From an uncultured Clostridium sp. (GTDB lineage: Bacteria; Bacillota; Clostridia; Oscillospirales; Oscillospiraceae), in the NCBI GenBank assembly GCA_904420465.1, contig CAJFVL010000011.1:1-39987 (forward strand): a stretch of 39,987 bases of DNA, read 5' to 3'. Below are positions 28,283 through 33,258 of the stretch, in pieces. A program made the translations under genes and the position numbers. The first letter of the stretch is position 1. Each line of letters begins with the position of its first letter. The notes under the pieces were generated by a model that saw only the letters and a list, made by a program, of their open reading frames with translations, was not told the DNA's origin and did no database searches.

Positions 28283-28319
28283 CCGCGCCGGGCCCCATTT
28301 TGAGGCCCGGCGCGGTTTT
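28283..28319. terminator. Terminator between the YbaK and ABC-F genes
   Basis: CCGCGCCGGGCC / GGCCCGGCGCGG perfect 12-bp stem with TTTTATAT on the plus strand. On the minus strand the run is weaker (GGGGTTTATGG). Confidence 0.88.
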
Positions 28320-29814
28320 ATATTCCCGTCGGGGACAGCTCCACCGCTCCAGTGGCAATCCCCTCCCGAAAGGCCCGGTCGTGCTCCACAAAGACCAGGG
28401 TAGGCCGGTATTCCAGGATCAGCTCCTCCAGCTGGATTCGGGAGAACAGGTCGATATAGTTCAATGGCTCGTCCCACAGGTAGAGAGAGGCGCTCTGGCA
28501 CAGGCTGACGGCCAGCAGCACTTTCTTTTTCTGCCCCGCGCTGTACTCCGAGATGTCCCGGTCAAAGAGTGAGCGGGCAAAGTCCAGCTTGCGCAGGGCG
28601 GTGAGCAGGCGGGTATAGTCCACCCCCTTCGCCCGGGCCAGCCCCTCCAGTGTGCCTGACAGCCCCTCCGTCCCCTGGGGCACATAGGAGATCTCCAGGC
28701 CGGAGGCGCGCCAGAGGGCGCCGGTGTATTCCAGCTCCTCCCCCAGCAGCAGCCGCAGCAGGGTGGTCTTGCCGCAGCCGTTGGGTCCGGTGAGAGCCAG
28801 CCGCTCCCCCTGCTCCAGCCGGAAGGTACAGGGGGCGCTCACCGGCCTGCCATTCCGGCACACCGACACCTCCCGCAGCTCCAGCAGCCTGGCGCTGGGA
28901 TGGGACTTTGGGGTCAGCCACAGGCTGTCCGTCCGCTCCAGATCCCGGAGGAGGCCCCGCTTCTCCTGGATGGCCCGCTCCTGCCGCCCCTCCAGGCTCT
29001 TGGCCCGCTTCATCATCTTGGCCGACTTGTGGCCCACAAAGCCCCGGTCCACCTTCAGGCCGGAGTTCTCGCTGCGGTATTTGCTCCGCTCCACCTGGTC
29101 CGACCAGCTCTCGGCACGCCGGGCCGCCTGCTCCAGGCGGCGGATCTCTCCCTTCAGCTTCTCGTTCCGGGCCAGCTCCCGGCGGTCCCGGGCCTCCTTC
29201 TCCCGGTACCAGACGGAGAAGTTCCCCCGCACCAGCTCCTGCCCTCCGGGGTTGAGGGCCAGGATGTGGTCCACACAGCCGTCCAGAAAGGCCCGGTCGT
29301 GGGAGACCAGCAGAAAGCCCCGGTCCAGCTGCCGCAGATAGCGGGCGACCGCCTCCCGCCCCGCCTCGTCCAGGTGGTTGGTGGGCTCGTCGATCAGGGG
29401 ATAGCGGCTCTCGGCCAGAAAGAGGGCGGCCAGACCCGCCCGGGTCCGCTCCCCGCCGCTGAGGGAGGAAAAGGGCCGGTCCAGCAGCTCCTCCCCCAGC
29501 CCCAGCAGGTTCCACTCCCGGAGAAGGCGCCACTCCTCCCCCTCCGGGACGCCCTCCAGCAGCACCTCCCGGGCAGGACGCTCCGGCCGGGATACGGGGC
29601 GTGGAAAGTACAGGGGCCGCTCCGGGCAGCTCAGGGCTCCCCGCCCCTCCAGGCTTCCCTCCAGCAGACGCAGCAGGGTGGTCTTGCCCCGGCCGTTGCG
29701 CCCCACCAGCCCCAGCTTCCAGCTGGTGTCCAGCCGGAGATTCAGATCCTGAAACACAGGGGTGTGGCCGCCGTCGTAGGTGAAGCTCAAACGCTGTATC
29801 ATAATTTGAGACAT
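28318..29814 (-). CDS. ABC-F ribosome-protection-like ATPase (Lsa-type)
   Basis: 498 aa, two ABC domains and no membrane part. Domain 1: Walker A GRNGRGKTT (38-46), signature LSGGE (118-122), Walker B with IDEPTNHLD. A long charged inter-domain linker spans about 200-310. Domain 2: GPNGCGKTT (343-351), YSAGQKK and LWDEPLNYID. The LWDEPLNYID form and the start SQIMIQRLSFTY resemble the Lsa/CplR group, whose members displace lincosamides, streptogramin A and pleuromutilins from ribosomes. The resistance spectrum here is unproven. ATG 29814 is 8 nt after AGGAGG; an ATG two codons earlier is too close. The leader has the layout of a translation-sensing attenuator. Confidence 0.9.
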   Translation of the reverse strand: MSQIMIQRLSFTYDGGHTPVFQDLNLRLDTSWKLGLVGRNGRGKTTLLRLLEGSLEGRGALSCPERPLYFPRPVSRPERPAREVLLEGVPEGEEWRLLREWNLLGLGEELLDRPFSSLSGGERTRAGLAALFLAESRYPLIDEPTNHLDEAGREAVARYLRQLDRGFLLVSHDRAFLDGCVDHILALNPGGQELVRGNFSVWYREKEARDRRELARNEKLKGEIRRLEQAARRAESWSDQVERSKYRSENSGLKVDRGFVGHKSAKMMKRAKSLEGRQERAIQEKRGLLRDLERTDSLWLTPKSHPSARLLELREVSVCRNGRPVSAPCTFRLEQGERLALTGPNGCGKTTLLRLLLGEELEYTGALWRASGLEISYVPQGTEGLSGTLEGLARAKGVDYTRLLTALRKLDFARSLFDRDISEYSAGQKKKVLLAVSLCQSASLYLWDEPLNYIDLFSRIQLEELILEYRPTLVFVEHDRAFREGIATGAVELSPTGI

Positions 29815-29832
29815 GGTCATGCCCTCCTGTCT

Positions 29833-29877
29833 GTCAAAATCAAACAGCCGCGGGAAGGAACAAGCCCCTCTCGCGGC
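29833..29877 (-). terminator. Attenuator terminator in the ABC-F leader
   Basis: Minus strand stem: GCCGCGAGAGGGG (29877-29865) with CCTTCCCGCGGC (29858-29847), 11 of 12 positions paired counting G-U, then TGTTTGATTTT, directly ahead of the ABC-F ribosome site. A competing pairing exists (see the leader entry). Confidence 0.7.
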
Positions 29878-30012
29878 GGACCGGCAGGCATGGCGGCGCA
29901 GAGACGCCCCATGTTATCTATGCTTCGGAGCCGGCGGCGGAAAGCGGCAATACCCTCTCGCAGCGGCATGACAAAGCCGGGGCTCTTCCGCCCCAAATTT
30001 GCTCCATCATGC

Positions 30013-30033
30013 TCAGCCAAGGGTATTGCGCAT
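30013..30033 (-). CDS. Leader peptide MRNTLG (6 codons) of the ABC-F attenuator
   Basis: ATG CGC AAT ACC CTT GGC TGA, preceded by a very strong ribosome site (GGAGGGAGG about 7 nt upstream). Its codons 2-5 are the segment that pairs with the downstream AGGGTATTGC. It is far too short for a normal gene but well placed for drug-dependent ribosome stalling. Confidence 0.7.
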   Translation of the reverse strand: MRNTLG

Positions 30034-30066
30034 CTTCCCGCCTCCCTCCGGTTTTGGTTCTGGGGT

Positions 30067-30095
30067 ATACTAACACAGGTCCGCCCCCTTGTCAA
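30067..30095 (-). promoter_or_regulatory. Sigma-A promoter for the ABC-F gene
   Basis: Minus strand TTGACA (30090-30095), 17-nt spacer, TAGTAT (30067-30072). The -35 is the centre of a perfect 17-nt palindrome CCCCCTTG-N-CAAGGGGG (30084-30100), a candidate operator. Confidence 0.85.
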
Positions 30096-30111
30096 GGGGG
30101 TACCGCCTCGG

Positions 30112-30777
30112 TCACCGGAAGGGCCTTCCCTCCCCGTCCAGCACTTCACGGCGGTGGAATGTGACAAAATCCGGCTCATACTGGGGGTAGGCGGCGCAGA
30201 AGGCCGCCCGGATCAGCTCCGGGTTGACGCCGGGGTTCTGGGCGGACACCACCGCGTCCAGGGTCATGGTGTCGCTCTGACACTCCAGGTTGTAGCTGCG
30301 GATGAGGGGGATCAGATCCAGCTCGGTATATCCCTTCTTGGACTTGCTGGATTTTTTCTGCACCACCAGGCTGTCCCGGGAGAGAAGCTCCCGCATGGCA
30401 GGCTCGGCCTCCTGAGGCCGCCCCTCCGGGTACTCCAGATTCATGATGTAGTTGACAAAGGCCAGCTCCTTGATCTTCCGCTGAGCCGGATAGCACTCGT
30501 GGACCAGGATGCCCTCGGGCATGGCGGCGGTGAGGCGCTGGGGCACCTCTCCGTGAGCAGTCCCCTCCAGCAGACCGAACTCCAGAATCTCGCACTGGCT
30601 GGAGTAGCCCACCGACAGGGGCAGGGCGATGGAGACAAAGGGGTGGGGGTGGAAGCCCTCGGTGTGCTTGATGGGGATGCCCGCCCGGGCAAAGGCCCGC
30701 TGAAAGGTGCGCATCAGGTCCAGGTGAGAGATGTACCGGGCCCGGCCCAGCTTGGAGAACAGCAGACGGTCAGCCAT
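30112..30777 (-). CDS. DUF2344 / TIGR03936 radical-SAM-linked protein
   Basis: 221 aa. It starts MADRLLFSKLGRARYISHLDLMRTFQRAFARAGIP, with EGFHPHPFVSIALPLSVGYSSQCEILEF, both hallmarks of this small family that is found beside or fused to TIGR03960 radical SAM proteins. No catalytic role is known to me. The frame overlaps the radical SAM gene by 8 nt, and its GGAGGGAGGGG ribosome site lies inside that gene. Together they probably form one complex or pathway. Confidence 0.9.
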   Translation of the reverse strand: MADRLLFSKLGRARYISHLDLMRTFQRAFARAGIPIKHTEGFHPHPFVSIALPLSVGYSSQCEILEFGLLEGTAHGEVPQRLTAAMPEGILVHECYPAQRKIKELAFVNYIMNLEYPEGRPQEAEPAMRELLSRDSLVVQKKSSKSKKGYTELDLIPLIRSYNLECQSDTMTLDAVVSAQNPGVNPELIRAAFCAAYPQYEPDFVTFHRREVLDGEGRPFR

Positions 30778-32614
30778 TACACACCCCTCCCTCCAGCAGG
30801 CGGTTGGCTCCGCAGCCCGAACACCGGGTGCGGCAGTCCGGGGTGGTCCGGGAGGCGTAGCACTGCTCCCGCTCCCGCCACAGGAAAGCGGGGGTGACCA
30901 TGGTGTCAATGCGGCACCAGGGGAACACCTCGTTCCTGGGCCGCTCCCGGTGGGCGTAAAAGTCCCCGTCCACCCCGCACTCGGCCAGGGCGTCCATCCA
31001 CCGCTGAAAATCAAAATACTCGCTCCAGGAGTCCATTTTGGCCCCGTGCCGCCAGGCGCACTCCAGCACGTCGGCCAGCCGCCGGTCCCCCCGGGAGAGA
31101 ACGGCCTCCAGATAGCTGGTCTCCGGATCATGCCAGTTGTAGGTAATGGACTTGTCCCGCTTCAGAGCGTCCCGCAGCAGGTCCACCCGGCGCTGGTACT
31201 CCTCCCGGGTGATCTGGGCCTCCCACTGAAAGGCGGTGTGGGGCTTGGGGACAAACCAGGAGGTGGACACGGTGATCCGCACCCCCCGGGCCTTGTTGGG
31301 GGTGCACTCCCGCCAGGCGAAGTAGACCTTTCGGGCCAGGTCGGCGATGCCCAGCACGTCCTCGTCGGTCTCGGTGGGCAGGCCCAGCATGAAATAGAGC
31401 TTGACCCCGTTCCACCCGCCGGAGAAGCAGGTGCGCACCGACTGGAGCAGGTCCTCTTCGGTGAGGTTTTTGTTGATGGCGTCCCGCAGGCGCTGGGTGC
31501 CCGCCTCGGGAGCAAAGGTGAGTCCGCCCTTGCGCACCCGCTGGAGGCGCTCCATCAGGTTCATGGAGAAGGTGTCCGCCCGCAGGGAGGGCAGGGATAC
31601 CCCGATATCCCGGGGAGCGCAGTAGTCCAGCAGGTTGTCGCACAGCTCCAGCAGACAGGGGTAATCGGTGGAGGACAGGCTGGACAGGGTCATCTCCTGA
31701 TAGCCCGAGTCCTGGCAGGCCGCCTTGCCGTATTCGGCCAGCAGCTCGGGGCTTCGATTCCGCACCGGGCGGTAGACATAGCCCGCCTGGCAGAAACGGC
31801 AGCCCCGGATACAGCCCCGGAACAGCTCCAGCATCACCCGGTCGTGTACAATCTCGGTGGAGGGAATGATGGTTTTGACCGGGAAATAGGACTTGTCCAT
31901 ATCCTGTACGATGCGCTTGCGCACCATCTCATGGGCGCCGGAGCCCTCTACCACCCGCATCTCCTCCAGGCGGCCGTCCTCCTTGTAGATGGGCTCGTAA
32001 AAGGAGGGGACGTAGATGCCCTCGATCCGGGCGGCCTCCCGCAGAAACTCCTCCTTGGACCAGCCCTCGTCCCGGGCCTGGCGGTGGAGGGCGATGTACT
32101 CCAGGGTGACCTCCTCCCCCTCCCCCAGGACGAACAGGTCGATAAAGGGGGCCAGGGGCTCCGGGTTGTAGCAGCAGGTCCCCCCTGCGATGACCAGGGG
32201 GGACAGGTCAGGCCGGTCGGCCGAGCGCAGGGGCAGCCCGGCCAGATCCAGCATGTTGAGCACGTTGGTATAGGACATCTCGTACCCCAGGGAGAAGCCG
32301 ATGATGTCGAAGTCGGAGATGGGGTCCCCGCTCTCAAGGCCGTAGAGGAACAATCCCTCCCGGCGCATCTCCTCCTCCATGTCTCCCCATGGGGCAAAGC
32401 AGCGCTCACACCAAATGTCCTTCTCCCGGTTCATCACCCCGTATAAAATGCGGCAGCCCAGGTTGGACATGCCGATCTCGTATGTGTCGGGAAAACACAG
32501 GGCAAAACGAGTGGCCACGGACTGACGGTCCTTGACCACTGCGTTGTATTCTCCGCCGGTGTAGCGGGCAGGCTTCTGCACTTTGGATAAAATATGCTCC
32601 AGCGCGCGGTTCAT
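30770..32614 (-). CDS. B12-binding-type radical SAM protein, TIGR03960 family
   Basis: 614 aa. An N-terminal B12-binding-like domain (about 30-200) is followed by a radical SAM barrel with the cluster motif C268-x3-C272-x2-C275 (FRGCIRGCRFCQAGY) and downstream LSSTDYP, FAPEAGTQRLRDAINKN and KLYFMLGLPTETDEDV. The C-terminal end has a small Cys group (CRTRCSGCGANR). Its substrate is unknown. ATG 32614 follows GAGGGA; the longer frame has no better site. It lies 38 nt after spoIVFB. Confidence 0.93.
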   Translation of the reverse strand: MNRALEHILSKVQKPARYTGGEYNAVVKDRQSVATRFALCFPDTYEIGMSNLGCRILYGVMNREKDIWCERCFAPWGDMEEEMRREGLFLYGLESGDPISDFDIIGFSLGYEMSYTNVLNMLDLAGLPLRSADRPDLSPLVIAGGTCCYNPEPLAPFIDLFVLGEGEEVTLEYIALHRQARDEGWSKEEFLREAARIEGIYVPSFYEPIYKEDGRLEEMRVVEGSGAHEMVRKRIVQDMDKSYFPVKTIIPSTEIVHDRVMLELFRGCIRGCRFCQAGYVYRPVRNRSPELLAEYGKAACQDSGYQEMTLSSLSSTDYPCLLELCDNLLDYCAPRDIGVSLPSLRADTFSMNLMERLQRVRKGGLTFAPEAGTQRLRDAINKNLTEEDLLQSVRTCFSGGWNGVKLYFMLGLPTETDEDVLGIADLARKVYFAWRECTPNKARGVRITVSTSWFVPKPHTAFQWEAQITREEYQRRVDLLRDALKRDKSITYNWHDPETSYLEAVLSRGDRRLADVLECAWRHGAKMDSWSEYFDFQRWMDALAECGVDGDFYAHRERPRNEVFPWCRIDTMVTPAFLWREREQCYASRTTPDCRTRCSGCGANRLLEGGVCNG

Positions 32615-32652
32615 GATGGCCGATCCCTCGTCTTTATGTGGATAGTGTCTTT

Positions 32653-33258
32653 TTATTTTACTCGCTTCCGGCCTCTGTGGCAAGACCCAAATTGCAAATC
32701 CTGTTCACTGAGAAAATTTACCAGAAGCCAGAGGGAGACCAGCAGCAGGGTGATGTTGCGCCCCGCTCCCGCCAGCCAAAGGCCGCCGGCCAGCAGAGCG
32801 CCGGTGCAGATTCCGTCCAGCCTCCCCTGGACCCGGCGGGCCGCCTCCGGTCCGGCCAGAAGGGACAGGAGGCAGAACACCAGCCGGCCTCCGTCCAGTC
32901 TGCCCACCGGCAGCAGATTGAAGCAGCCCAGCACCAGGCTCAGCCCGGCGAAGAGCTGTCCCCAGCTCCACCGGCAGAACAGGGCGGCCAGCATCAAATT
33001 GACCAGGGGGCCGGCCAGGGCCGCCGCCCCCTCCCGGCCATAGCTCAGCGGACGGGAGAGCACCATCTCCGCTCCAACAGCTGTTAAGCGGATCAGCTTC
33101 ATATCTCCGCCCAGCAGCCGGATGGCCAAATAGTGTCCCAGCTCATGGAGCAGGCAGGCCGCCATGACCAGAGGGACAATCCGGTCCCGGTCCAGGTAGT
33201 TCAGCCAGGCGGCCAGCAGAAAAAATCCGCCGGTGGCCTCCACCCTGCCCAGCCTCAC
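32653..33258 (-). CDS. spoIVFB: SpoIVFB-like site-2 intramembrane metalloprotease (M50)
   Basis: 201 aa, about four to six membrane segments. The zinc motif HELGH is at 38-42; the third ligand is in NLLPVGRLDGG (D122). In Bacillus, SpoIVFB in the outer forespore membrane cuts pro-sigma-K. It is short compared with other S2P proteases and lacks CBS domains. GTG start at 33258 overlaps the stop of the M23 gene (GTGA), the same order as spoIVFA-spoIVFB. The name rests on that order and the sigma-E-like promoter. Confidence 0.85.
   Translation of the reverse strand: MRLGRVEATGGFFLLAAWLNYLDRDRIVPLVMAACLLHELGHYLAIRLLGGDMKLIRLTAVGAEMVLSRPLSYGREGAAALAGPLVNLMLAALFCRWSWGQLFAGLSLVLGCFNLLPVGRLDGGRLVFCLLSLLAGPEAARRVQGRLDGICTGALLAGGLWLAGAGRNITLLLVSLWLLVNFLSEQDLQFGSCHRGRKRVK

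Follow-up and report, generated by a model that had tools for sequence, protein, structure and literature searches.

The window, i.e. the whole stretch of 39,987 nucleotides that was analysed here (contig CAJFVL010000011.1 of assembly GCA_904420465.1, from an uncultured Clostridium sp.), carries on its reverse strand a gene for an Lsa-like ABC-F protein, and the question raised by this locus is whether the leader RNA in front of the gene controls it and, if so, what that leader senses. Ribosome-mediated attenuation of ABC-F genes has been established for vmlR and cplR (PMC9226507, PMC10201436). The original prediction placed the present leader in the same category, as a ribosome-sensing attenuator in which the pairings 1:2 and 3:4 exclude the pairing 2:4, and this arrangement is backed by conservation and covariation. 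Judged from the sequence and from modelled folds, the leader is very probably a ribosome-mediated transcription attenuator which reads start-codon occupancy on a short upstream frame.

The ABC-F protein reaches 615.3 bits against the NCBIfam model NF000167 (Lsa), its top match among the listed families, and is filed as Lsa-like only, since this score is below the curated cut-off of 750; the general ribosomal protection model NF000355 is passed (433.6 versus a cut-off of 380). By sequence, the nearest solved structure is that of LsaA (7nhk, E 7e-127), followed by the next at 8.2e-67. The drugs printed for LsaA (ARE3) are pleuromutilins, lincosamides and streptogramin A (PMC10201436) and, as Lsa is the family to which the protein comes nearest, the same pleuromutilin/lincosamide/streptogramin A class is by analogy a plausible inducer. 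The gene has two in-frame ATGs (29812-29820), the first lying just 2 nt from AGGAGG; relatives conserve the second (MSQI), which is, from the sequences, the more likely translation start. GGAGG-type sequences are found ahead of the ABC-F starts in many relatives. The leader has the strong promoter that had been claimed for it (Table 1), and a promoter pattern of the same type was found by a script scan at 26 of 30 same-genus leaders. The same-strand upstream neighbours (30112-32683) encode a TIGR03936/DUF2344 protein and a TIGR03960 B12-binding radical SAM protein.

Table 1. Features of the ABC-F leader and gene, in order of transcription.
Feature	Position	Strand	Basis
Sigma-70-type promoter, TTGACA-N17-TAGTAT, extended -10 (TG)	30067..30095	-	10/12 matches; 0.1 expected in shuffles
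Leader-frame Shine-Dalgarno GGAGGGAGG, 7 nt from ATG	30041..30049	-	sequence; conserved in alignment A1
Leader frame MRNTLG, 6 codons + TGA (ATG CGC AAT ACC CTT GGC TGA)	30013..30033	-	
Anti-antiterminator 5' strand	30016..30029	-	10-nt arm 30020-30029 (GCAATACCCT) + R1 30016-30023 (codons 4-6)
Stem A, hairpin directly 3' of frame, U-rich CTTTGTCATG on 3' side	29966..30012	-	
T' (GCTGCGAGAGGG), near copy of terminator 5' arm; partner is the frame (off) or T* (on)	29953..29964	-	
AGGGTATTGC, exact complement of frame, overlaps T'	29947..29956	-	7/5000 dinucleotide shuffles with a complement as long as 10 nt
Partner strand of leader-frame Shine-Dalgarno in free fold	29926..29946	-	minimum-energy structure
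T, terminator 5' arm	29865..29877	-	
T*, terminator 3' arm, partner of T and of T'	29847..29859	-	
Terminator hairpin GCCGCGAGAGGGG...TCCTTCCCGCGGC	29877-29847	-	
Interrupted U tract TGTTTGATTTT	29836..29846	-	
Shine-Dalgarno AGGAGG of ABC-F gene	29823..29828	-	sequence
Lsa-like ABC-F gene; start conserved in relatives at 29814 (MSQI), longer frame beginning at 29820	28318..29814	-	

The other sequence elements named by the original prediction were largely recovered. The six-codon frame MRNTLG is present behind a strong ribosome site, its exact 10-nt complement lies 63 nt downstream, and T' matches the terminator 5' arm at 11 of 12 positions, a match equalled in 10/5000 shuffles. Downstream of stem A the RNA reads GCTGCGAGAGGGTATTGC, then a spacer, then the terminator hairpin. 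The terminator-like hairpin claimed for the region before the ABC-F gene was found as such, with the reservation that its U tract is interrupted and that it is absent from the list of a simple terminator scan, which flagged stem A instead. Stem A scored as terminator-like in that scan, and its U-rich 3' stretch recurs in relatives; by analogy with SL-2 of vmlR, it is a possible pause hairpin. The leader is more stably folded than any of 200 shuffles (z -5.23), and in its minimum-energy fold the Shine-Dalgarno and the frame form one strand of a long hairpin. Codon 6 of the window frame (GGC) deviates from the family motif and disrupts one of the seven R1:T' pairs, 6/7 being kept; what appears in the window fold is the shifted 10-nt frame pairing of the original prediction. 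Sequence and folding thus identify a frame with its Shine-Dalgarno, an anti-antiterminator that contains the frame and, with the interrupted U tract as a reservation, an intrinsic terminator with a mutually exclusive antiterminator, which are three of the four features by which an ARE ABC-F attenuator is recognized; the fourth, arrest of the ribosome by a drug with ensuing induction, is approached here through footprint folding.

In the proposed mechanism, in which transcription, termination, the drug and induction are inferred, translation of the frame, or the absence of a ribosome, would leave the Shine-Dalgarno, the AUG and the next codons to pair with T' and its neighbouring strand; T would then pair with T*, and transcription would stop ahead of the ABC-F gene. 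Blockage of the first peptide bonds by a drug would instead keep the ribosome on the AUG or on codon 2, where the frame would be unable to pair, so that free T' could take T* as it is transcribed; no terminator would form, and RNA polymerase would continue into the ABC-F gene. The frame would serve mainly as a landing pad, the peptide encoded by it being largely immaterial.

The switch was modelled by equilibrium folds with a hard constraint in place of the ribosome, and not by kinetics. With no ribosome on the window leader, T* pairs with T at 0.88 and with T' at 0. With a footprint of -15..+16 on the AUG, the pairing of T* moves to T' (0.77-0.82) and that with T falls to 0, in keeping with the earlier claim that the near copy can compete for the 3' arm. 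T' was ahead at codon 1 for all six footprint sizes (0.50 versus 0.31 for the smallest, over the whole T*); with the ribosome at codon 2 the outcome varied with footprint size, and from codon 3 onward T again held 0.85-0.90 of the whole T*. Covering the Shine-Dalgarno alone, or the frame alone, produced no switch in the window folds. Among 125 leaders folded with 8 nt of T* made, T' was ahead in 2 when free and in 107 with a ribosome at codon 1, the count declining to 104, 95, 78, 69, 51 and 41 at codons 2-7. With the whole of T* made, T' was ahead in 0 leaders when free and in 40 at codon 1 (mean T* shares with a ribosome on the start codon: T' 0.28, T 0.52). Footprints which began at least 21 nt past the AUG switched at most 12/125 leaders, and the window leader never. 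In these modelled folds, T' commonly captures T* early, and final stability over T is reached in about a third; since T' beats T over the full T* in only 40/125, a kinetic switch would be required in most leaders.

The pairings on which the switch would depend were followed first within the genus. A homologue at E <= 1e-60 is present in 53 of 99 related genomes, and a six-codon MR[N/K]xxx frame stands at the same place, after a strong Shine-Dalgarno, in 30/30 same-genus loci; these frames were located through the pattern ATGCGCAA, so their first letters are partly given by construction. In alignment A1, which comprises 28 of the 30 same-genus loci (L024 and L017, a near duplicate of L011, were omitted), unguided RNAalifold predicted R1 (codons 4-6):T', stem A and the terminator, 18 of its 38 pairs showing a double-sided change in one sequence or more; for stem A the corresponding number is 11 of 16. 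The named off structure was paired in 95.2% of cells and the on helix T':T* in 90.6%, the covariation of each being reached by 0/500 shuffles, versus only 40-64% of cells paired in the slid controls for both structures. Covariation in the genus, of the kind proposed as a check with the original prediction, supports both the 1:2 and the 2:4 pairing.

Beyond the genus, 220 regions upstream of Lsa-like genes were collected, of which 191 were kept after the removal of near-duplicates and short ones; a further 27 loci (L084-L110; <=30% identity, not Lsa-like) were not used. A usable terminator was available in 132 leaders, with T' found in 124 of these; some automatic terminators are doubtful (e.g. 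L010, L020, L135-L139), and that of L001 was set by hand. At the key position of R1:T', 124 leaders show T-A in 49, T-G in 39, C-G in 35 and C-A in 1, and at that of T':T*, 118 leaders show G-C in 54, A-T in 45, G-T in 15 and A-C in 4. Paired cells numbered 934/992 for R1:T' (shuffled maximum 900) and 900/944 for T':T* (shuffled maximum 857). In alignment A3, with 92 leaders (11 same-genus ones, the window included, and 81 of 89 further ones), R1:T' was 93.6% paired, with 60 double-changed cells versus a shuffle mean of 14.2. When independent pairs were counted on the tree, T':T* was supported (median p 0.031), while R1:T' gave median p values of 0.625 and 0.5, at one position and with too few differing pairs for a decision. 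Duplex energies of single leaders, which ranked 5 in 100 or better against shuffles in 41/169 cases for T':T* and 39/169 for R1:T', were too weak alone and were therefore replaced by covariation. Unguided RNAalifold found no pair on the 92 leaders of A3, probably due to stem A not aligning, and for this reason the covariance model described below is sequence-only. Together, sequence and covariation establish the parts, both pairings and their kept spacing, to which the footprint switch is added by computation.

The same evidence bears on an alternative in which the frame and the repeats are a chance occurrence or a relic and the hairpin is the ordinary terminator of the upstream operon. The TIGR03936-type gene does stop at 30112, 16 nt ahead of the leader promoter, and the simple scan lists no terminator between that gene and the promoter; the shuffle tests, the covariation, the retention of the leader across the genus and some of the phylum and the association with one gene family nevertheless make this reading, which the covariation contradicts, extremely improbable. 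Control exerted mainly on translation, with the leader masking the ABC-F Shine-Dalgarno instead of terminating transcription, would have precedents in cplR and vmlR, which combine both layers (PMC10201436, PMC9226507). It is rendered quite improbable by the position of the window ABC-F Shine-Dalgarno, which is outside the terminator and in no strong stem of the minimum-energy fold, and by the terminator-like hairpins that were script-called in 190 of 191 leaders, some of these calls being misplaced or weak.

If the leader is a transcription attenuator, what the ribosome has to do on the frame can be asked from the frames themselves. A Shine-Dalgarno-like stretch, a start codon and YYUGC occur together within 26 nt in 149 of 191 regions, versus a mean of 27.8 and a maximum of 38 in 20 mononucleotide shuffles. 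A selectable frame with the motif is present in 139/191, a few being spurious (e.g. L038, L049, L060, L189, L238); the window leader is not among the 139 because its codon 6 is GGC. The end of the T*-like motif falls at offset 18, counted from the start codon, in 116/139 frames, and the commonest codons 1-7 are ATG CGC AAT TTT TCT TGC TGA. For the 125/191 leaders placed on a tree (the remainder being without full protein), the stop was scored in 91 rows; it directly follows the motif in 70/91, precedes it in 14/91 and comes later in 7/91, and the frame end changed position at least 12 times on the tree, as the fewest changes possible. Three of the 14 early rows (L041, L119, L127) have doubtful starts and one of the seven late ones (L038) seems to be spurious. 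Where the Shine-Dalgarno spacing is ordinary, early stops leave, for example, MR (L117, L171), MK (L112, L164) or MRK/MRN (L165, L055, L035). In L041, L119 and L127 the start codon is followed at once by a stop and then by the pairing motif; these start-stop frames are not relied on, because the Shine-Dalgarno spacing is 12 nt.

The original prediction took MRNTLG to be a stalling peptide, such that a drug and the nascent chain would together arrest the ribosome at a later codon, as in erm and msrD leaders. An MR start in 75 of the 116 leaders with an offset-18 motif speaks for such peptide-specific stalling, as does CGC at codon 2 in 30 same-genus loci; the latter is partly by construction through ATGCGCAA and is ambiguous, because CGC also pairs in the RNA. 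Codon 2, however, encodes 12 amino acids across leaders, codons 3-5 are variable too, the stop lies before or past the motif in the rows given above with repeated changes on the tree, and a footprint placed on codon 3 or further along gives no switch of the window fold, which responds only at codons 1-2. This part of the original prediction is not supported, and peptide-specific stalling is considered unlikely. The R1 motif would be kept because of its likeness to T*, either of which can pair with T'; on the evidence of the sequences, the conserved element is an RNA motif and not a peptide.

An amino-acid starvation attenuator, in which the TGC or CGC codon would sense uncharged tRNA (e.g. for cysteine or arginine), was weighed on the same frames. 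Since it would be circular to count codons in motif-selected frames, the use of Ser and Cys codons was counted anew on frames chosen by their amino acids. Cys at codon 6 is then TGC in 122/127 frames, and a shortage at codon 2 would likewise keep the ribosome on the AUG. Against this, the early-stop leaders retain the TGC letters outside the frame, codon 6 of the window is GGC, the Ser codon before Cys6 is TCT or TCC in 82/82, as RNA pairing demands, and the gene encodes a ribosome-protection ABC-F protein and not a biosynthetic one. Starvation sensing in general is thus very improbable, and sensing of cysteine in particular was rejected on the TGC kept beyond early-stopping frames, the GGC of the window and the restriction of Ser codons to TCT/TCC. 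Occupancy of the start codon is the preferred reading. It is further suggested, with somewhat better than even confidence, that the leader represents a widespread, undescribed class of Bacillota attenuators that accompanies Lsa-like ABC-F genes, uses the frame purely for ribosome landing and senses blocked first peptide bonds. Leaders of such a class would carry an 8-nt mimic of the terminator 3' arm, mostly ending at +18, inside, across or beyond the frame; as the mimic would stay at a kept distance from the start codon, only the occupancy of that codon would be read, and the frame could shrink to two codons, perhaps to AUG-stop. Such leaders would form a general sensor and not one of a particular peptide-drug pair.

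The sequence-only model with which the distribution of the leader was assessed draws on 92 leaders that derive partly from the genus and phylum sets, so that hits on these source leaders match by construction; the informative controls are the genus genomes outside the model, the absence of strong hits elsewhere and the hits before ABC-F remnants in two genomes (G203 and G248), likewise outside the model. The window's own genome has one strong match (2.2e-10; next 0.155). In the genus, the leader was found in 41/61 genomes, i.e. all 40 with the ABC-F gene and one (G004) whose contig ends after the leader. Among 398 genomes of the phylum it was found in 32 at E <= 0.001, 26 of them at E <= 1e-6; of these 26 strong matches, 24 are just upstream of ABC-F genes and 2 precede broken ABC-F remnants. 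The six weaker ones comprise G077 (before the gene), G312 (near the gene on the opposite strand) and four elsewhere. Ten of the 36 phylum genomes with an ABC-F gene have no leader match at 0.001, and an eleventh has one on the opposite strand only; the element is therefore not universal, or is sometimes unrecognized by the model. In G203 (L288/L254) and G248 (L261/L289), a well-kept leader precedes an ABC-F gene that is broken soon after its start; there the leader has outlived its ABC-F gene. A weak match in G127 (L278, C10:22880-22977, plus strand; E 4.6e-4) has parts in the same order, with a frame-like ATGCGCAGCGAAGCTTGC, GCAAGAGAGCAGC and a terminator-like hairpin ending CTTTCTTGCGGTC; the gene after it resembles, by eye from the sequence, a sigma-70-family factor and not an ABC-F gene, and L278 is either a relic or a reuse of the leader. 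Rfam gave 0 matches at gathering score in the window and, in 20 of the regions from relatives at E <= 0.5, nothing beyond a tRNA and a microRNA model that stayed well short of its gathering score. If the proposed mechanism holds, intrinsic protection of the lincosamide/pleuromutilin/streptogramin A type would, in many Bacillota of gut and soil, be under a common, readable RNA switch. The leaders would also offer a natural test of the leader peptide as sensor versus landing pad, the motif being kept while the frame shortens, lengthens or changes, and a signature by which genes of this type could be located in uncultured genomes and their probable inducibility recognized.

The kind of control proposed here is known from vmlR and cplR. 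In Bacillus subtilis, an antiterminator model has been put forward for vmlR, with initiation arrest needed for induction (PMC9226507); as in the window, a short frame (MIN for vmlR) lies within an anti-antiterminator hairpin and an antiterminator competes with an intrinsic terminator. The peptide variants MDN and MDK work in vmlR whereas MRK is less efficient, so that the codons are not wholly neutral (PMC9226507). Unlike the window, vmlR has a three-codon frame of another sequence, belongs to ARE2 and possesses an extra hairpin that masks the vmlR Shine-Dalgarno. The cplR leader of Clostridioides difficile resembles the window in its 5' hairpin with a frame (MRI), its anti-Shine-Dalgarno element, its terminator before the gene and a uORF consensus starting with MR (PMC10201436). 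It differs in its three-codon MR[I/M] frame, versus six codons in the window, in belonging to ARE1 and in a terminator stem that masks the gene Shine-Dalgarno, translational attenuation being sufficient there (PMC10201436); three-codon MRN/MRK frames are present in some relatives of the window leader. The uORF consensuses printed in PMC10201436, namely MR[I/M] for CplR, MIN for VmlR, MK[L/Q] for VmlR2 and MAGN for LsaA, all differ from the frames described here. The LsaA consensus was derived from homologues at least 80% identical to LsaA (PMC10201436), and although Lsa (ARE3) is the subfamily nearest to the window protein, the frames here are of the MR[N/K/H]xSC type. Start-codon toeprints have been reported for the ARE5 leaders are5sc and tiaA of Streptomyces (PMC12421871), which, unlike the window, precede actinobacterial ARE5 genes and have other leader sequences. 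Among the matches listed by literature searches that included six typical frame peptides, there was no description of this Lsa-clade leader. Thus, while the kind of attenuator is known, the Lsa-clade form, with a terminator mimic at a kept distance from the start codon, looks new.
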